Part shown: positions 15,243-30,108 of the stretch, one piece after another
How the letters are laid out: every line of letters begins with the position of its first letter
How positions within the stretch are numbered: the first letter of the stretch is position 1
NCBI RefSeq assembly: GCF_019052655.1
Contig: NZ_JAHQVB010000014.1
Coordinates: forward strand, 1 to 36,334
Length of the DNA stretch: 36,334 bases
Reading direction: 5' to 3'
Source of the DNA: Holdemanella porci
Lineage (GTDB): Bacteria > Bacillota_I > Bacilli_A > Erysipelotrichales > Erysipelotrichaceae
The notes under the pieces: model-generated
The model's input: only the letters and a program-made list of their open reading frames with translations
Told to the model about the DNA's origin: nothing
Databases searched by the model: none
Made by a program: the position numbers and the translations under genes

Positions 15243-15340
<98 letters not shown>

Positions 15341-15344
15341 ATAT

Positions 15345-15420
15345 GGGGTGTTAGCTCAGCTGGGAGAGCACCTGCCTTGCACGCAGGGGGTCATCGGTTC
15401 GATCCCGATACGCTCCACCA
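15345..15420 (+). tRNA. tRNA-Ala (anticodon TGC)
   Basis: A 76-nt cloverleaf. The acceptor stem GGGGTGT pairs with ACGCTCC (two wobbles), the D-arm is TAGCTCAGCTGGGAGAGC, the anticodon TGC is at 15378-15380, the T-arm is GGTTCGATCC and CCA is encoded. It is 14 bases after tRNA-Ile in the same transcript. Confidence 0.97.
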
Positions 15421-16059: not shown

Positions 16060-16333
16060 CAAAACACAAGGAAATGGAGTAGTAAAAGGAAAGTCTTTGT
16101 TAGAGAGTTGTCGGTTGGTGCAAGACATAAAGGATTGAACTTTGAACTTACCATGGAGTGGTCAGGTTGATAAGACTTGAACGTAGGCTTAACGTTAATA
16201 AAGCAGGATGTGATAGCATCTGAAATGAGTGCATTCTTAAATGAATGAAGAAGAGTGGTACCGCGGAAGTATTGTAATTCTAACCTTTCGTCTCTTCTGT
16301 CTAAACAGGCAGCAAGAAACGATTGGTTTTTTT
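16060..16333 (+). promoter_or_regulatory. T-box riboswitch, probably leucine-specific
   Basis: The Stem I landmarks are present: AGTA (16081-16084), AG bulge AGAGAG (16102-16107), distal loop GGTTGGTGCAAG (16113-16124) closed by TGTC/GACA, and GAA (16144-16146) followed by a candidate specifier CTT (16147-16149) and ACC. The antiterminator carries the T-box GAGTGGTACCGCGG at 16253-16266. CTT reads as leucine. If the frame were shifted by one base, TTA is also leucine. T-box elements raise expression when the matching tRNA is uncharged, so the downstream transporter and dehydrogenase should be induced by leucine shortage. Confidence 0.9.
16282..16333 (+). terminator. T-box terminator hairpin
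   Basis: AACC...CGT (from 16282) pairs with ACG...GGTT (ending 16328), with inner CTGTC (16298-16302) and GGCAG (16308-16312), then seven T residues. It competes with the antiterminator formed by the T-box sequence. Confidence 0.75.
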
Positions 16334-17519: not shown

Positions 17520-18588
17520 AATGTCTAATTATTCAGTCGGAGAAAGTTGTTACAACGAAATCCCAGGTGTATGTGAAAAGTACAATGTTAAAAAAGTTGT
17601 ATTGATTGGTGGTAAAAGAGCTTTGGCGGCTACTGAACCAAGAATTCGTGAAGCCATTAAAGAGACTGATATTATTATTACAGATTCAATTGTATATGGT
17701 ATTGAATGTACTATGACGAACGTACATAAATTGACTTCAAATTCAAACGTACAAGAAGCCGATGTTATCTTTGCGATTGGTGGAGGAAAAGCTATCGATA
17801 CTTGTAAAACCGCATCCATTGAGATGAATGACAAAATGGTTTTTTCATTTCCAACAATCTGTTCAAACTGTTCGGCCGCTACAGCTATTGCCGTAGTATA
17901 TGATGACAATGGAGCATTGGACCACTATTCATATCCTCATTGTCCAGCACACATCTTTATCAATCCAGATGTCATCGCAAAAGCACCAAGTGAATATTTC
18001 TGGGCCGGAATTGGGGATGCGTTGTCTAAACAATGTGAAGTTGAATTCGCAACACAAGGAAAGATTTTAGATCACACGGCTACAATGGGATTGGCATTGG
18101 CGAAAACTTGTACTGCACCATTGTTGAAATATGGTAAACAAGGTATGGAAGATTGTAAAAATGATACAAATTCAGCTGCAATCGAAGCTATTGCCTTGGA
18201 TATTGTCGTATCAACTGGATATGTTTCAAACTTAACAAACCAACCAGAATATTATTATAATTCAAGCATTGCGCATGCCTTCTATAATGGTAGTTGCTCA
18301 ATTACACGTGATGGACACCATCTACATGGCGAAGTTGTATCCTTTGGTGTATTAGTATTGTATGCATATGCCAAAGATGAAGAAAATTTAATGAAAATGG
18401 CAAAATTCAATAAATCAATCGGCTTACCAGTGACTTTAGCGGATGTGGACTTGGATGAAAGCCATTTGGAAGCTTTGACTGAAGCGGCTACAAAAACAAA
18501 TGAGTGGAAAAATGCACCTTTCCCATTCACAAAAGAAGAGTTTATTGACGCTATTAAAAAGGCAGATGCAGTAGGTCAAAGCTTATAA
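17506..18588 (+). CDS. Iron-containing alcohol dehydrogenase family (GldA/HcxA-like) oxidoreductase
   Basis: A 360-residue member of the glycerol-dehydrogenase branch of the iron-containing alcohol dehydrogenases. The nucleotide-binding signature GGGKAIDTCK is at 92-101. The metal ligands align as D171 (GIGDALSK), H257 (SIAHAFYNG) and H274 (HLHGEVVS). Close relatives include glycerol dehydrogenase GldA and the hydroxycarboxylate dehydrogenase HcxA. The substrate cannot be told from the motifs, but leucine-type T-box control makes interconversion of a 2-hydroxy acid and 2-oxo acid related to leucine (for example 2-hydroxyisocaproate/2-oxoisocaproate) more likely than glycerol. A GGAG lies upstream of ATG 17506, inside the transporter gene. 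Confidence 0.87.
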   Translation: MKTIEMSNYSVGESCYNEIPGVCEKYNVKKVVLIGGKRALAATEPRIREAIKETDIIITDSIVYGIECTMTNVHKLTSNSNVQEADVIFAIGGGKAIDTCKTASIEMNDKMVFSFPTICSNCSAATAIAVVYDDNGALDHYSYPHCPAHIFINPDVIAKAPSEYFWAGIGDALSKQCEVEFATQGKILDHTATMGLALAKTCTAPLLKYGKQGMEDCKNDTNSAAIEAIALDIVVSTGYVSNLTNQPEYYYNSSIAHAFYNGSCSITRDGHHLHGEVVSFGVLVLYAYAKDEENLMKMAKFNKSIGLPVTLADVDLDESHLEALTEAATKTNEWKNAPFPFTKEEFIDAIKKADAVGQSL

Positions 18589-19784: not shown

Positions 19785-19804
19785 TAGTGATGTAGGTGAT
19801 AAAA

Positions 19805-20707
19805 ATGTTACTGTTTTTTAAGAGTTTACCAAGACTAGTACACAGTGCCAATAAAGATATGCACCGTCATTTCTTGATGACCTTTTCTTCCATTGTATCG
19901 ATTGGCATTGCTTTATTAATGGCTTTGTTTATATTTGTGATTTATATGAATGTCGGAGGATTTACGAGTCAAATTGAAAGTGAATTTATGATTCAAGTCT
20001 CTTTAAATCCAACACTAGAAGATGAAGAAATTAGTGAATTATCCGATTCAATTTCATCTCTTGCTTCCGTAAAAAAAGTAACGTATTCAAGTAAAGAAGA
20101 GGAATTGGATGCGTTGATCAAAGAAAATGGGGCGATGTTTAAACAATATAAGGGAGAGGACAAGAACCCTTTATATGACGTTTTGAATGTGGAATTAAAA
20201 GACAACACAAAAATTTCAAAAGTGACAAAGAAAATTTCTAAAATGGATGGTGTTGTTCAAGCTACATATGGAGGTAGTGCTATCAACACGATGATTCAAC
20301 TGTTTAAAAATATCCGTGTATGGGGAAGTGTCTTTGTTGGATTGATGGTTTTGATTGCCGTATTCTTGATTCGAAATACTATTAAAATGACAATTTTAGT
20401 ACGAAAAGATGAGATTGCGATCATGCGAACAGTTGGTGCCTATAACTGGTATATTTCTTTACCGTTTGTATTAGAAGGAATCTTTATTGGCTTTTGGGGT
20501 GCATTAGGCCCTGTTTTGATTTGTATATTTGGCTATACAGGACTTTACCACGTAATGAATGGTATGTTTTTTAGTGACATGATGAGTATGCTGAAACCAT
20601 ATCCATTCGTACTTTGTACTTCGGGCGGCATTCTTTTGATTGGAATGGTTGTAGGAATGCTAGGAAGTTATTTAGCCGTTAGAAAATATTTGAGGTGGAC
20701 ACGATGA
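19805..20707 (+). CDS. ftsX: FtsX-family permease (first copy)
   Basis: A 300-residue membrane protein with the FtsX layout: one N-terminal helix (about 26-50), an extracellular domain of about 130 residues, then three more helices. The ABC-permease segment DEIAIMRTVGAYNW is followed by LEGIFIGF. FtsX forms the membrane part of FtsEX, which uses ATP to activate wall hydrolases outside the cell. ATG 19805 with AGGTGA upstream is preferred to a GTG nine bases earlier. It overlaps the hydrolase gene by 4 bases (ATGA). A second, different FtsX follows at 22762, so the two may form a heterodimer with the one FtsE. A short C-terminal RKYLRWTR is shared with the second copy. Confidence 0.92.
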   Translation: MLLFFKSLPRLVHSANKDMHRHFLMTFSSIVSIGIALLMALFIFVIYMNVGGFTSQIESEFMIQVSLNPTLEDEEISELSDSISSLASVKKVTYSSKEEELDALIKENGAMFKQYKGEDKNPLYDVLNVELKDNTKISKVTKKISKMDGVVQATYGGSAINTMIQLFKNIRVWGSVFVGLMVLIAVFLIRNTIKMTILVRKDEIAIMRTVGAYNWYISLPFVLEGIFIGFWGALGPVLICIFGYTGLYHVMNGMFFSDMMSMLKPYPFVLCTSGGILLIGMVVGMLGSYLAVRKYLRWTR

Positions 20708-22068
20708 GAAAATATAAATTCTGTGCAGGTTTTCTAAGTTTAGCTATGGCCTGCTCATTAATCATGCCTGTTTCAGCAGAAGACTATTCCGATACAGAAG
20801 CCTGGTATGCCAAGTGTAGTCAGGCACAAACTTCACAAGCTGGCGTAAAAGCTTGTCAGGGATTTCAGGAATATCAGAAGAATCGTAAACAAAGTCTGCA
20901 AAACAGTATTGAAGCTTATACTTCGAGCATAGCTTCTTTGCAGAGTGATACGACAAAAATGGAGCAGCTTGCCAAGGAACAAAAAGAATTGGTTTCCAAT
21001 TTACAAACGCAGATAAGTGAAAAAGAAAAATCGATTGAGTTGATTGAAAACAACATTAAAGAATTGGAAGAGAAGATTCAGGCAAAACAAGCTGAAATTG
21101 ATGCTTGGAACGCACAAATCGAAAATCGTATGAAAAATGAACAAACAACGATTGGAACCAATATGATTATAGACTTGATCATGGGATCGGATAGTTTAAG
21201 TGATATGCTACGTCGTATTTCTGGAGTTGAAAGAATCACAGAAGATGATCAGTCGCAAATTAAAAAGTTAAATAAATTAAAGAAAGAACTTGTTTTGCAG
21301 CAAGATGAACAAAAACGTTTAGATGAAGACGCAAAAAGTCAAAAGGCAGAATTAGAATCGCAAAAACAGCAGGCCAGTAAATTAGAGGAATCTTATAATA
21401 AACTGGTTGAAGAATATCAGAAAAAAATTACAGAATTAGAAGCACAGAAACGTTCCGCACAAGTGGACATGAATAGCATTCGAGACTTTGTGATTTCAAC
21501 AAACTTCTCAGGATCGATTGAATCCGTATCTGGATTTATACATCCTGTACAAGGTGGAAGCAAAAGTGCTGGTACCTGGGCATATCCTGGTGGAGGCATG
21601 CACTTAGGACTAGATTGGGCAGCTCCAATTGGTACAACTGTAGTAGCTCCAGCAAGTGGTGTGATTTTATATGCCGCAGCCCCTGTAGGAAGCAACTCAG
21701 GCTATTTGGGTAACTGGTCAGGATATCCTTATGGTGGTGGAAACACAATAGAAATGTTGTGTAATGTGAACGATACACTTTATGCCGTAAGTTTCTGTCA
21801 CTTGTCGCAAACAATCTACGTAAGTGCAGGACAAAGTGTTTCACAAGGTCAAGCAATCGCGTTATCGGGAAATTCAGGAAATTCAAGTGGGCCACATACA
21901 CATATTGAAGTCTATAATCTAGGTTCAATGTCTGTAAGTGATGCGGTAGCTCGTTTTAGTGCGGGTGCTGATTTTGCGTGGGGAACAGGCTGGTCAGGCA
22001 CAGGTACTTCTTGTGAAGCTGGCAAAGCAGCGCCTTGCAGGGAAAGACCAGAAAAGTTCTTTAGTTAG
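20704..22068 (+). CDS. Exported coiled-coil M23 peptidoglycan hydrolase (EnvC/PcsB-like)
   Basis: A 454-residue secreted protein. Signal peptide 1-25 ends VSA. Residues 45-260 form a long coiled coil like those of EnvC, PcsB and CwlO, which bind the FtsX outer domain. The C-terminal M23 (LytM) domain holds the zinc motif H300-x-x-x-D304 in HLGLD and H398-x-H400 in HTHIE, so it should be catalytically active and cut peptide cross-bridges. ATG 20704 is preferred because it overlaps the ftsX1 stop as ATGA with GAGGTG upstream. The position between ftsX1 and ftsE is strong evidence that the FtsEX complex controls this hydrolase. Confidence 0.93.
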   Translation: MRKYKFCAGFLSLAMACSLIMPVSAEDYSDTEAWYAKCSQAQTSQAGVKACQGFQEYQKNRKQSLQNSIEAYTSSIASLQSDTTKMEQLAKEQKELVSNLQTQISEKEKSIELIENNIKELEEKIQAKQAEIDAWNAQIENRMKNEQTTIGTNMIIDLIMGSDSLSDMLRRISGVERITEDDQSQIKKLNKLKKELVLQQDEQKRLDEDAKSQKAELESQKQQASKLEESYNKLVEEYQKKITELEAQKRSAQVDMNSIRDFVISTNFSGSIESVSGFIHPVQGGSKSAGTWAYPGGGMHLGLDWAAPIGTTVVAPASGVILYAAAPVGSNSGYLGNWSGYPYGGGNTIEMLCNVNDTLYAVSFCHLSQTIYVSAGQSVSQGQAIALSGNSGNSSGPHTHIEVYNLGSMSVSDAVARFSAGADFAWGTGWSGTGTSCEAGKAAPCRERPEKFFS

Positions 22069-22078
22069 GAGGAACATT

Positions 22079-22765
22079 ATGATTGATTTAAAAGATGTTT
22101 CAAAAGCATATCCCAATGGAGTACATGCTTTAAATCATGTAAATTTACATATTGATAAAGGTGAATTTGTTTATGTGATTGGAGCCACAGGTTCTGGTAA
22201 ATCTACATTGATCAAAGTGCTAAATGGAGAAGAAGTTCCAGATGAAGGTGCAGTTATTGTAGATGGTATTAATGTAGGGGCCTTAAAACATAGAAAAGTT
22301 CCATACTATAGACGTAATGTTGGCTGCGTATTTCAAGATTATCGTTTACTTCCAAAATTAACTGTCTTTGAAAATATTGCCTTTGCCCTAGAAGTTGTGG
22401 GTATGCCACGCAAACAAATTCGTAAACGTGTAATGGAAGTATTAGAGCTTGTTGATTTGAAAGAAAAGGCTAGAAGTTATCCAGACGAATTATCTGGAGG
22501 ACAACAACAGCGTGTAACGATTGGCCGTGCCATTGCGAATAAACCAAAAGTTTTGATTGCAGATGAACCAACAGGAAATCTAGATCCCGAAAAGAGTTTA
22601 GAAATTATTTCATTATTAGAAAAAATCAACCAAAAACTAGATACAACAATCATGATGGTTACACATGATAAAGTATTGGTTGACCGCTTTAAAAAACGTA
22701 CGATTATGTTAGACAAAGGATATGTGATTCACGATTCGAATAAAGGTGGGTATAAGAGTTTATGA
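22079..22765 (+). CDS. ftsE: Cell division ATP-binding protein FtsE
   Basis: A 228-residue ABC ATPase that powers FtsX to activate wall hydrolases. Walker A is GATGSGKST (35-43), the signature LSGGQQQR (138-145) and Walker B VLIADEPTG (158-166), with the Q-loop in CVFQDYRLLP. ATG 22079 has AGGAGG upstream. An in-frame extension of 40 codons to 21959 overlaps the hydrolase gene and is rejected. It ends overlapping the second ftsX by 4 bases. It is the only ATPase in the cluster, so it must serve both FtsX proteins. Confidence 0.97.
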   Translation: MIDLKDVSKAYPNGVHALNHVNLHIDKGEFVYVIGATGSGKSTLIKVLNGEEVPDEGAVIVDGINVGALKHRKVPYYRRNVGCVFQDYRLLPKLTVFENIAFALEVVGMPRKQIRKRVMEVLELVDLKEKARSYPDELSGGQQQRVTIGRAIANKPKVLIADEPTGNLDPEKSLEIISLLEKINQKLDTTIMMVTHDKVLVDRFKKRTIMLDKGYVIHDSNKGGYKSL

Positions 22766-23664
22766 TGAAAGGTTTACGTACTTTTTTATACGAATTGAAG
22801 TATGCCTTTCTCCAAATGAAAAGACATATTATGTTGTGCTTTTCTGCCATTAGTGCCATTGGCATTACCCTACTTTTGATTGGTTCGATATTGATTATTG
22901 GATTACACGTTAATTATTTTTCGAATGATGTTCAAAAAGATTTGAGTATTCACGTTATTTTAAATGAGGATATCGATGATGAAACAGCTATATCAAGTAT
23001 TCAGAGTGAAATATCTAAATTGAAGAATGTTTCAAAGGTAGAAGTATCCTCTAAAGATGATGAACTTGAACTTATGATCAAAGAAAAGGGAGATGCTTTT
23101 AAAGCTTATCGAGGAGAAACAAATCCCTTATCCAATGCTTTCTTTGTTTATGTAAAGAATGCTTCTTCTATCCGTAAAACAAGTGTGCAGATTCAAAAAA
23201 TTGATGGCGTATCCAGCACAGCTTTTGGAGGAGACAGCGTTACAAGCTTAGTAGACATGTTGAATATGATTCAAAAGATTGGTTTAGGCATTGTTGCTTT
23301 ATTGACTCTATTGTCTTTATATTTGATTTATAACGCGATTCGAACGACAATTGATTCAAGAAGTGATGAAATCATTATTATGCGTACAGTAGGTGCAACG
23401 AATGGTTTCATCAGTAATCCATTCATTGTCGAAGGTATTTTTATTGGACTAATTGGATCTATCATTCCATATTTATTGGTGCATTTTGGATATGAAAAGC
23501 TGTACGAAAGTTTAGACGGAAAACTATTCACACCTATGTTTGCCCTATTTAAACCAAGTACAATCAGCTTTCAAGTAGGACTCTCTATCATTCTTGCGGG
23601 AGCCTTGATTGGTGGGTTCGCATCCTTGTTTGCGGTAAGAAAATATTTGAAAATGAAACGATAA
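22762..23664 (+). CDS. ftsX: FtsX-family permease (second copy)
   Basis: A 300-residue protein with the same architecture as the first FtsX: N-terminal helix, an outer domain of about 130 residues, and three C-terminal helices with DEIIIMRTVGATNGF and VEGIFIGLIG. Both copies share NP-type residues in the outer domain (ENGAMFKQYKGE versus EKGDAFKAYRGE) but are otherwise divergent, so this is an old duplication rather than a recent one. It starts ATGATG, overlapping ftsE. Standard Bacillota clusters are ftsE-ftsX with one permease. Here two genes of the same length flank the hydrolase and ftsE. No frameshift is seen in either. Confidence 0.92.
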   Translation: MMKGLRTFLYELKYAFLQMKRHIMLCFSAISAIGITLLLIGSILIIGLHVNYFSNDVQKDLSIHVILNEDIDDETAISSIQSEISKLKNVSKVEVSSKDDELELMIKEKGDAFKAYRGETNPLSNAFFVYVKNASSIRKTSVQIQKIDGVSSTAFGGDSVTSLVDMLNMIQKIGLGIVALLTLLSLYLIYNAIRTTIDSRSDEIIIMRTVGATNGFISNPFIVEGIFIGLIGSIIPYLLVHFGYEKLYESLDGKLFTPMFALFKPSTISFQVGLSIILAGALIGGFASLFAVRKYLKMKR

Positions 23665-27254: not shown

Positions 27255-27276
27255 ATTTGCGAACATAGATTCAATG

Positions 27277-27391
27277 AGTTCTTCGGGGCAGGGTGCAATT
27301 CCCTACCGGCGGTAAAAGTCCGCGACCCACGCAAGTGGCTGACTTGGTGTAATTCCAAGACCGACAGTATAGTCTGGATGGTAGAAGACAC
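27277..27391 (+). promoter_or_regulatory. FMN riboswitch (RFN element)
   Basis: Canonical RFN blocks are present in order: TTCTTCGGGGCAGGGTG, CCCTACCGGCGGTAAAAGTC, CGCGACCC, GACTTGGTG, CCGACAGTATAGTCTGGATG, and closing GTAGAAGAC, which pairs with the opening arm. It binds FMN and, when occupied, allows the terminator downstream to form. It controls ribU and the creatininase-family gene. Confidence 0.97.
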
Positions 27392-27415
27392 AAAAGTATT
27401 TTTTGTATTTTTTAG

Positions 27416-27446
27416 ACCCCGAGAAGATTTTTCTTGGGGTTTTCCT
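27416..27446 (+). terminator. FMN-controlled terminator
   Basis: ACCCCgAGAA (27416-27425) pairs with TTCTtGGGGT (27431-27440), followed by TTTCC. It lies between the aptamer and the ribU ribosome-binding site. Confidence 0.8.
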
Positions 27447-27484
27447 TTTGGAAGAGCTTATCCGAATCAAAAGGAGGTAAAAAG

Positions 27485-28102
27485 ATGAAAAAATGGAATG
27501 TTCAAACAATTGTATTAACGGCGATGCTTGCAGGTCTTGCCGGGGCATTGATGTCACTGGAATTTTCTTTACCAATGATGCCACCATTCTACAAGATTGA
27601 TTTTAGTGATGTACCAAGTATTATTGCCCTATTTAGTCTAGGACCTGTATCTGCCACTTTAGTTGAAGTTATTAAATTGATTGTAAAAGTAGTGACTGTA
27701 GGAACAAATACAGCTTATGTGGGTGAACTCGCAAATCTTTTAGGAATTGCTCTATTTATTTTACCAACATGGTTTGTGTACAAGAAGATGAATAAGACAA
27801 GAAAAGCTGTTATTGTCTCTTTAATTGTTGGAATTCTAATTCGTACTGTATTCGCATGTTTCTGTAATGCATGTATTACTTTGCCACTATATGCCAAAGC
27901 TATGGGAATGCCGTTAGATTCTGTTGTGCAAATGGTAGGTTCTGTAAATCCAAGTATTAAAGATTTAATTTCATTTATTGCATTTGCGACAATTCCATTT
28001 AACTTGATCAAAATCTCAGCTAACTATATCATTGGATATTTCTTGATGGAAAGATTGTCTGCCATTCGTCCAAGCTTTAAGTTTATTTATGAGGCAAAAT
28101 AA
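27485..28102 (+). CDS. ribU: Riboflavin ECF transporter S-component
   Basis: RibU is the riboflavin-binding membrane subunit of the energy-coupling factor transporter. The 205-residue protein has six hydrophobic helices, the N-terminal helix start VLTAMLAGLAGALM that contacts the EcfT subunit, the ligand-binding PPFYKIDFSDVPSIIALFSLGP loop, and conserved residues of the RibU group. ATG 27485 follows AAAGGAGG at good spacing; an upstream in-frame extension is in the terminator region. It is the first gene under the FMN riboswitch. The shared ATPase/EcfT module is not in the window. It ends two bases before the creatininase-family gene. Confidence 0.95.
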   Translation: MKKWNVQTIVLTAMLAGLAGALMSLEFSLPMMPPFYKIDFSDVPSIIALFSLGPVSATLVEVIKLIVKVVTVGTNTAYVGELANLLGIALFILPTWFVYKKMNKTRKAVIVSLIVGILIRTVFACFCNACITLPLYAKAMGMPLDSVVQMVGSVNPSIKDLISFIAFATIPFNLIKISANYIIGYFLMERLSAIRPSFKFIYEAK

Positions 28103-28878: not shown

Positions 28879-28905
28879 GTTTACATTTGATAAAAATGCG
28901 TTCAC
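28879..28905 (+). promoter_or_regulatory. Direct repeats at the LytTR gene's own promoter
   Basis: GTTTAC (28879-28884) and GTTCAC (28900-28905), same orientation, start-to-start distance 21 bp. Known LytTR-domain sites are two short repeats with a GTTnA-like core 21-22 bp apart. The first copy precedes the -35 and the second lies between -35 and -10, fitting negative autoregulation. Confidence 0.5.
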
Positions 28906-28915
28906 TCTTTATAAT
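28887..28915 (+). promoter_or_regulatory. LytTR gene promoter, leaderless transcript
   Basis: TTGATA (28887-28892), 17 bp, TATAAT (28910-28915). ATG 28923 begins 7 bases after the -10, so the mRNA would start at or next to the start codon. Confidence 0.7.
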
Positions 28916-28922
28916 TATAAGT

Positions 28923-29585
28923 ATGATAAAAGTAGCCATATTAGAATATGAAAAAGAAACTAAGGACATCGTTTTTCAATTATCTAAATTGTTTATGCAT
29001 GAGGATTGGTGTTTTCGTCATTACTTAAAGGCGAGTGATCTGGCAAAACGGATGAAGAAAGAAGAGTATCAATTATTTGTGTTTGATGAAATGTTTAAGA
29101 CGAATCGTATTGAAAGTGTATTTGTACATGATAATCCAAATGCGATTGTGATTTATGTGTGTGAAAATCCAATTAAGACGCGTGGCGATGATGAAAGAAG
29201 TCGTGTGTTCTATATTTCAAAAGAAAATATCGCAGATGACATTTCAGCTTATGATCAAATGATTCGTTCGCAATGTATTCAAAGTCATGTATATGAATTT
29301 AATTATGATGGAGTTCGTATGAATCTTTCGTATGAAGATATCTACTATTTGGAAAAGAATGAAAAGATGGTGTATTTTTATACAAAAAAAGGCGTTTTTC
29401 ATAAGCGTGATAGTATGAATGCACTTGAAGAAGTGTTTAAAGAGTTCGGTTTTTTACGAGTACACGTATCCTATATTGTGAATTCTAAATATATTGTGGC
29501 TTGGTATAAAGATGAAGTTGAGCTTATAAACAAGGTTCTGATTCCTGTTTCGAGAGGAAAAAAACGAAAGATATCGATGAAATAA
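28923..29585 (+). CDS. LytTR-family response regulator-like DNA-binding protein
   Basis: A 220-residue protein. The C-terminal domain (about 120-220) is LytTR: MNLSYEDIYYLEKNEKMVYFYTKKG, then FLRVHVSYIVNSKYIVAW and VLIPVSRGKKRK. The N-terminal part is receiver-like but divergent: a possible phosphoacceptor D55 (VFDEMF) is present, but the usual acidic pair near the N-terminus is replaced by LEYE. No histidine kinase or peptide signal gene is adjacent. A promoter with a leaderless start precedes ATG 28923. An in-frame start 36 bases upstream lies within the promoter and is rejected. Repeats fitting LytTR sites occur at its own promoter and before the following RNA, suggesting that it regulates both. 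Confidence 0.85.
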   Translation: MIKVAILEYEKETKDIVFQLSKLFMHEDWCFRHYLKASDLAKRMKKEEYQLFVFDEMFKTNRIESVFVHDNPNAIVIYVCENPIKTRGDDERSRVFYISKENIADDISAYDQMIRSQCIQSHVYEFNYDGVRMNLSYEDIYYLEKNEKMVYFYTKKGVFHKRDSMNALEEVFKEFGFLRVHVSYIVNSKYIVAWYKDEVELINKVLIPVSRGKKRKISMK

Positions 29586-29589
29586 CCGA

Positions 29590-29616
29590 TTTTACCAGTA
29601 AAAAGGCGAGTTTTAC
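29590..29616 (+). promoter_or_regulatory. Direct repeats upstream of the ncRNA promoter
   Basis: TTTTACCA at 29590-29597 and 29611-29618 (core TTTTAC), start-to-start distance 21 bp, same orientation as the repeats at the LytTR promoter. They lie directly after the LytTR stop codon and about 30 bp upstream of the -10 of the RNA promoter, the position expected for an activator. Confidence 0.5.
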
Positions 29617-29646
29617 CACTTGTCTTTTCTTTTTGATTTTGTTGGT

Positions 29647-29652
29647 TATAAT
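29647..29652 (+). promoter_or_regulatory. ncRNA -10 element
   Basis: Perfect TATAAT. The -35 at normal spacing (29624-29629, CTTTTC) is poor; a better TTGTCT (29620-29625) is at a long 21-bp spacer. This suggests dependence on an activator. Confidence 0.5.
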
Positions 29653-29658
29653 GAAAGT

Positions 29659-30108
29659 GCAAAGAGAAGTAAGAGCAGAGAAAACTTCTCTTGAGACAAA
29701 AAGAGGGCGGTGAGAAGATGACAATAACATAGGGTTGAAACGGAAAGTTTTAACTATAAAAAGTTGAAGCTATGGAGAGAAGGCTCCAAAGGTTAAGCTA
29801 GAGGAATTCTAGAAAAAACATTCAGTGGAACTTAACAAGAAAAGGAAATAGGATTTAGATAAAGGGTTTTATTGAGTGAATAATCACAAAAAGGATAGAG
29901 TACTTGGAATGTTAAGGATATCATCCAATCTAGATCATGGAACTTAAAGATACTCATATATGGTCATACTTGAGAAAATGCTTAAGGAAAATGAATAGAA
30001 TAAAATCATAATGCGGATGATAAAAAATTGGATAAGGTAGAAAAGTTATCCGGTTTAAAAAAAGTGAATAAATAAATCAGAGCAGATGGAATGTCTGCTC
30101 TAATTTTT
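29659..30108 (+). ncRNA. Structured non-coding RNA of about 450 nt, class not recognised
   Basis: No credible ORF is present on either strand, but a promoter (-10 at 29647) and a strong terminator (30079-30108) bound the region, and it is full of locally paired arms. Examples: AAGAGAAG 29662-29669 with CTTCTCTT 29685-29692; CATAG 29728-29732 with CTATG 29770-29774 around TTAACT/AGTTGA; GTTAAG 29792-29797 with CTTAAC 29831-29836 around CTAGA/TCTAG; TTATT/AATAA 29869-29883; TTAAG 29912-29916 with CTTAA 29943-29947; GGATAA 30030-30035 with TTATCC 30046-30051. The strand is purine-rich. It lacks the signature blocks of RNase P RNA, tmRNA and SRP RNA. ROOL, OLE and GOLLD were not excluded. Confidence 0.7.
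30079..30108 (+). terminator. ncRNA terminator
   Basis: AGAGCAGA (30079-30086), loop of 7, TCTGCTCT (30094-30101), then AATTTTTG. Confidence 0.9.

Follow-up and report, generated by a model that had tools for sequence, protein, structure and literature searches.

A LytTR-domain regulator and an adjoining structured RNA in Holdemanella porci: an apparently undescribed pair laid out like AgrA-RNAIII

The question raised by this locus is whether a LytTR-domain regulator controls the large RNA encoded just downstream of its gene, in the way that AgrA controls RNAIII, and what such an RNA might do where no agr genes adjoin it. The window analysed was the whole stretch of 36,334 nucleotides from Holdemanella porci (contig NZ_JAHQVB010000014.1 of assembly GCF_019052655.1). 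A first-pass annotation of this DNA had proposed a distinct regulator-RNA circuit, in which the regulator acts through pairs of kTTyAC repeats at both promoters, repressing its own gene and activating the RNA.

The regulator gene (28923..29585, + strand) encodes 220 aa, with a receiver-like N-terminal fold followed by a LytTR DNA-binding domain; a creatininase gene lies upstream of the pair, and genes for gamma-glutamyltranspeptidase and a HAD hydrolase lie downstream. The LytTR domain of the window protein was identified as PF04397 (E 4.9e-16, 59.2 bits against a cut-off of 22.6) and was present in all 19 regulator proteins checked. The fold predicted with AlphaFold (pLDDT 86, pTM 0.56) comprises a receiver-like domain and a LytTR domain, and its best PDB matches were full-length ComE chains and the AgrA LytTR domain. 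The protein thus shares the two-domain fold of the ComE-type REC-LytTR regulators but differs from them in that Pfam gave no match for a receiver domain in 19/19 proteins, in that the phospho-acceptor-like residue 55 is Asp in 13/22 proteins and N, Q or H in the other 9, and in that one residue of the acidic pair is kept (residue 8 is Glu in 22/22, and residue 9 is acidic in 1/22). The altered acidic pocket also sets it apart from AgrA. The signature of a classical phosphorylated response regulator (acidic pair, Asp, Thr/Ser, Lys) does not hold across the 22 proteins, and, judged by these residues, part of the family has a degraded phospho-site.

The promoter of the regulator (28887..28915, + strand) consists of TTGATA (28887-28892), a 17 bp spacer, and TATAAT (28910-28915), and the ATG of the window gene follows only 7 nt past the -10 box. 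A start codon 6-8 nt past the -10 box, without a Shine-Dalgarno sequence, was found at 18 of 34 regulator loci, including the window as well as L060 and L066, where the gap is 6 nt. Because of this short distance and the missing Shine-Dalgarno sequence, the regulator of the window clade is predicted to be read, probably, from a leaderless mRNA. Such a start is not general, as leaders are present at the other 16 loci, which comprise type B, Merdibacter, and some others. Neither this probable leaderless start nor the short reading frame described below was part of the first-pass annotation.

Downstream of the regulator gene, the RNA promoter (29625..29652, + strand) combines a poor -35 box, TTTTCT (29625-29630), the position of which was set from the family consensus, with a 16 bp spacer and a perfect -10 box, TATAAT (29647-29652). 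Two putative LytTR half-sites of the ACCGATTTT type precede it on the + strand, one at 29585..29596, with CC at 29595-29596 (-52/-51), and one 21 bp further at 29606..29617, with CC at 29616-29617 (-31/-30); TTTTAC stands at 29590 and 29611, where the repeats had first been noticed. For comparison, 31 Erysipelotrichaceae RNA promoters were aligned on the -10 box without gaps. C was found at -51 in 30/31 and at -30, 21 bp away, in 30/31, and when one promoter was taken per lineage, both were present in 19/20. CC at a lag of 21 occurred in 22/31 promoters, against a mean of 1.5 and a largest value of 7 in shuffled sequences. Additional conserved C at -61/-60, -52, -40/-39, and -31 makes the site broader than kTTyAC, with two halves ACCGATTTTKCCA, and the -35 box is marked by T at -22 (30/31) and -21 (27/31), so that the layout of the family reads ACCGATTTT-12 bp-ACCGATTTT-10 bp-(-35).

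A 35 bp site matrix was trained on 28 RNA promoters from genera other than Holdemanella. With this matrix, the site at the window RNA promoter ranked first of 72,600 positions (score 22.0), and as a sequence pattern the pair is well beyond chance. When the matrix was run over 696,757 bases, 27 sites were listed with a score of at least 20; 26 of these lie at promoters of RNAs of this family, the majority of which had been used to train the matrix, and two of the 26, belonging to second RNAs in L048 and L073, lay outside the training set and were newly found by the scan. The remaining one is in L015. A window site at 20778 (score 18.0), inside a coding ORF, was taken as a chance site. PMC6193735 describes the sites of LytTR activators, including those of the LytTR Regulatory Systems of the HdrRM and BrsRM type, as 9-bp repeats separated by 12 bp, with the -35 box about 10 bp further on. 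Judged by spacing, the RNA-promoter sites match this geometry, and the earlier reading of a promoter with a perfect -10, a poor -35, and both sites upstream, suggestive of activation, agrees with it.

The other repeat pair fared differently. The letters noted earlier are present at all four positions, and the conservation at -51 and -30 bears out the pair at the RNA promoter, but the pair at the regulator promoter (28879..28905, + strand), with GTTTAC at 28879 just 5' of the -35 box and GTTCAC at 28900 just 3' of it, is unsupported as a LytTR site. Shuffled sequences would be expected to contain the pattern KTTYACN15KTTYAC 0.17 times; the window has it three times, and besides the two promoter pairs there is a copy at 18134 on the - strand inside a coding ORF. 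Scored in the same register with the matrix built without Holdemanella, the regulator-promoter pair reached -27.5 and ranked 39,492 of 72,600, and it was seen in 3/22 loci scanned (the window, L007, and L008), all of them Holdemanella-like. Because of this score and rank, and of its absence outside Holdemanella-like loci, the proposed autorepression through 28879/28900 was rejected as unsupported. The L015 match (genome G045), a strong site of score 25.5 in reversed orientation, lies just upstream of the regulator gene, where the promoter region of the regulator borders on the DNA upstream. No RNA was recognised in that genome, and the site is possibly a case of real autoregulation there.

The RNA itself extends over about 450 nt (29659..30108, + strand), its 5' end being placed from the -10 box. 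From 5' to 3' on the + strand it contains a conserved block GAGRGCGGTGRGAAR (29703..29717) with a Shine-Dalgarno-like GGTGA (29709-29713), a mini-ORF (29718..29732), a hairpin P1 (GUUGAAAC / GUUUUAAC, 29734..29754) that starts one nt past the mini-ORF stop, a hairpin P2 (UGGAG / CUCCA, 29773..29788), a hairpin P3 (CUAGA / UCUAG, 29798..29812), a conserved 3' motif AAAAGTGAAT (30060..30069), and an intrinsic terminator (30079..30108) with its stem at 30079-30101 and a T run. The family form of the 3' motif, AMAANTGAAT, was found 5' of the terminator in 25/28 RNAs. The minimum free energy of the window RNA was -98.3 kcal/mol (z -5.7, or -4.8 without the terminator), and z was below -2 in 12/14 family members tested. 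The earlier description of a LytTR regulator adjoining a large structured RNA is supported. Rfam gave no match at the gathering score for the window RNA or 12 relatives, and among the three weak, scattered matches obtained for the window RNA up to E 10 none is meaningful, and RNAIII was not matched.

Measured from the 5' block onward, the RNAs are about 330-410 nt long in type A, to which the window belongs, and about 470-885 nt in type B; the ends of L058 and L061b were set by eye, and L037 was cut at a fixed length. Across the family, the first base of P1 falls between one base 5' and four bases 3' of where the mini-ORF stop ends. Its stems, which were picked by hand, are paired in 95/97 cells, against 70% (largest 87%) when 3' strands were swapped. 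For P2 and P3 together, 97.6% of cells are paired against 80.9% in shuffled alignments, and covariation was 0.532 against 0.202, a value that 0/500 shuffles reached; two of five covariation measures were not clearly above the shuffles (50 and 158 of 500). By these alignments, the helices P1-P3 covary. The full-length alignment gave little consensus structure outside P2, P3, and the terminator. One type B group has a predicted fold in which the stop-codon bases pair with a downstream strand. Merdibacter-like genomes carry a second, shorter RNA with a different body under the same type of LytTR site (L061 2058-2400, L048 from 5935 on the reverse strand, and L073 from 2469), with a near-identical 5' block and a 12-codon ORF, MTIESRCVKN[HN]R.

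The mini-ORF of the window reads ATG ACA ATA ACA TAG (MTIT*). The first in-frame stop comes 3-6 codons after the ATG in 30/30 sequences, against medians of 9 and 11 in the other frames; this count was made with the ATG of L133 and L149 chosen by eye and is exclusive of L061b (12 codons) and L021 (GTG start, 7 codons). Among 21 representatives, the chance of such an early stop in composition-shuffled sequences averaged 0.39 each, giving a product of 2e-9, and the stops used were TAG in 10, TAA in 8, and TGA in 3. All 11 type B sequences have glycine at codon 2 and six codons, and type A mostly begins MTI. The conserved start block and the early stop predict that the RNA holds a translated mini-ORF. 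Predicted folds showed no excess openness of the Shine-Dalgarno-ATG block (0.479 against 0.462 unpaired, with 14/24 above their own mean).

The distribution of the pair was determined by several searches. When 41 relatives were searched at the DNA level, 6 genomes matched the RNA at E 0.001, four of these only weakly, and inspection downstream of regulator orthologues in a search of 97 relatives revealed RNAs beyond the reach of BLAST that share the 5' block, hairpin, and terminator. The block GAGAGCGGTGRGAAVATGRVA was found at 32 loci across 84,980 species genomes, of which 24 were judged true, all with Erysipelotrichaceae-type titles or neighbours, and eight were removed by eye as chance (L045, L047, L049, L056, L062, L063, L070, and L075). 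One of these eight, L049 391-411 from a Lachnospiraceae MAG, has the 5' block pattern after TATAAT and a 7-codon ORF, MRIYSCR*, without the downstream core. L053 and L058 are rumen MAGs titled Erysipelothrix rhusiopathiae with a type A RNA, and their label may be wrong. A wider spread of the regulator subfamily was rejected, as 7/296 class-wide genomes matched at E 1e-30 and all seven fall within the same family (Erysipelotrichaceae). A viral or mobile origin was also rejected, with 0 relatives found and, in viral contigs, 0 matches to the block.

The regulator gene accompanies the RNA in 26/29 RNA-bearing sequences, the other three being cut by locus or contig ends. Conservation of gene, repeats, and RNA together, which the first-pass annotation had itself put forward as the means of refuting its proposal, was examined in 272 Erysipelotrichaceae genomes. 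A short RNA pattern was present in 30, four of which (G195, G199, G219, and G284) were removed as starts of unrelated ORFs. In each of the 26 RNA genomes remaining, the contig with the RNA also carries a regulator orthologue (E 1e-74 or better), encoded on the strand of the RNA and upstream of it, within about 250 bp in 19 and at 0.55-1.53 kb in 7, and the RNA half of the proposal passed. Regulator orthologues were present in 44/272 genomes (E below 1e-40, the next match being 7e-25), and Fisher's test for co-occurrence gave 7e-25, uncorrected for shared descent. The RNA pattern was missing from 18 of these 44. Downstream regions were inspected in 14 of them (G098, G100, G101, and G239 being the others), of which three had a diverged RNA (G014, G103, and G237) and 11 had none recognised. 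The RNA therefore implies the regulator, and the reverse does not hold.

Comparison with known systems began with agr, in which, according to PMC4227749, the promoter has a suboptimal spacer and is preceded by two direct repeats, and RNAIII also holds an ORF. The resemblance suggested earlier is borne out to the extent that the locus, like AgrA-RNAIII of Staphylococcus aureus, has a LytTR regulator, two direct repeats, and a structured RNA with an ORF. The ORF of RNAIII encodes delta-haemolysin; here it is a frame of 3-6 codons, and the RNA follows the regulator on the same strand. As had been noted for the window, agr genes are not at hand: agrB, agrD, and agrC are absent beside the regulator in the loci read, and AgrB was found in 11/26 RNA genomes and 0/2 Holdemanella genomes. 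The pair is laid out like AgrA-RNAIII and is not a member of agr. In the LytTR Regulatory Systems, as described in PMC6193735, the operon of the regulator has the repeats in its own promoter, and a gene for a membrane inhibitor comes next. In the present locus the repeats and the RNA take the inhibitor's place, and the regulator promoter is without a site in the window, L015 being the exception; in the loci read, no membrane inhibitor was seen downstream of the regulator, where an RNA or soluble-looking genes were found (judged by eye).

Compared by description only, OLE, GOLLD, ROOL, and raiA (ModT) are likewise long and structured and lack a long ORF, but the RNA described here is tied to one transcription factor and a mini-ORF and has no Rfam match. 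Minigenes of the lambda bar type are ORFs of very few codons with a Shine-Dalgarno sequence. They resemble the present frames, such as ATG ACA ATA TAA in Merdibacter, which differ in being part of a long structured RNA that has a regulator of its own. No description of this RNA family was found in the literature searched, most subscription papers and supplements being outside its scope, and the locus looks like an undescribed regulator-RNA pair of gut bacteria.

On balance, we consider it probable that an effector RNA resembling RNAIII is turned on by an atypical REC-LytTR activator and that the first hairpin of this RNA, P1, is gated by ribosomes on the mini-ORF. The atypical response regulator would bind the two direct half-sites, 21 bp apart and 10 bp upstream of the weak -35 box, and would activate an independent, terminator-ended RNA just 3' of its own gene; conserved geometry argues for this step. 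The RNA would act in trans, with its short reading frame in the 5' part, a role suggested by analogy with RNAIII. Ribosomes may bind at the Shine-Dalgarno-like block and translate 3-6 codons before terminating at the base of P1. A ribosome that terminates there would occupy P1 and melt it, and reading of the mini-ORF is therefore proposed, from its position, to gate the 5' domain or make it more stable. By comparison among the relatives, the sites at fixed places, the linkage of gene and RNA, P1-P3, and the early stop are all conserved.

An unlikely alternative is that the Shine-Dalgarno block and mini-ORF only protect the 5' end of an otherwise ordinary trans-acting antisense RNA, the peptide and the opening of P1 being irrelevant. 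Protection of an RNA 5' end by ribosome binding has been described for 5' stabilisers in Bacillus, and retention of the block in types A and B, and mostly in the Merdibacter-like second RNAs, despite differing bodies, as well as the varied peptide sequences, would be expected of it. Protection alone, however, leaves unexplained the invariably early in-frame stop and its place beside P1. Distinctly unlikely is a circuit that follows translation state, running from a leaderless regulator to an RNA that begins with a strong initiation site followed by a frame of 3-6 codons, with the first hairpin opening or closing according to ribosome supply. Leaderless mRNA is read poorly by ordinary 30S-dependent initiation, and if the circuit were real, the pair would sense and answer the state of initiation (stress, antibiotic, or ribosome hibernation), the large RNA involved being of a new class.

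The peptide might instead be the product, a formyl-peptide signal of 3-6 residues that the receiver-like domain senses to close a feedback loop, with the RNA body mainly setting its dose. The regularities of codon 2 and length in type B, the common MTI of type A, and the adjoining genes for regulator and peptide fit such a signal, but it needs no structured body of 330-885 nt with covarying helices and is judged highly unlikely. The chance that the RNA is a cis-acting leader or attenuator appears slight: the terminator-ended form and the frequency of a HAD hydrolase as next gene in type A are compatible with it, but a promoter-like box lies 3' of the terminator where the HAD gene follows (L010 and L013), and the role is disfavoured because downstream genes differ between loci (by eye, gamma-glutamyltranspeptidase in the window, rubredoxin-like in L011, rsmG-like in L023/L024, and an opposite-strand gene in L022). 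Slighter still is the chance that the RNA represses its regulator by base-pairing around the lytTR start. The genes are neighbours and feedback is common, but shuffled starts were predicted to pair just as well (mean z -0.07, 18 loci). Finally, a CsrA sponge of the CsrB type, suggested by 14 GGA triplets in the window RNA and by response-regulator control, was ruled out as scarcely credible, since CsrA was detected in 0/18 genomes searched (the controls E. coli, B. subtilis, and T. maritima being detected) and GGA is barely above shuffles (261 against 235).

A pair of the AgrA-RNAIII layout outside agr would add a further natural example, the second, of a regulatory RNA driven by a LytTR protein. 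The hosts are common gut commensals (Holdemanella, Faecalitalea, Faecalicoccus, Merdibacter, Longicatena, and Amedibacillus), and a mini-ORF fixed at the foot of a hairpin offers a clean test of whether minimal translation switches a structured RNA.

Several other features were observed in the window. An FMN riboswitch (27275-27393) lies upstream of the gene for an ECF transporter substrate-binding protein (27434-28102), which probably belongs to a riboflavin transporter. A T-box leader (16060-16298), a fluoride riboswitch (244-319), and two tRNAs (15254-15417) are also present. At 19796-23664, two FtsX-like membrane ORFs, recognised by eye from translations only, flank peptidase-like and ABC ATPase-like ORFs.
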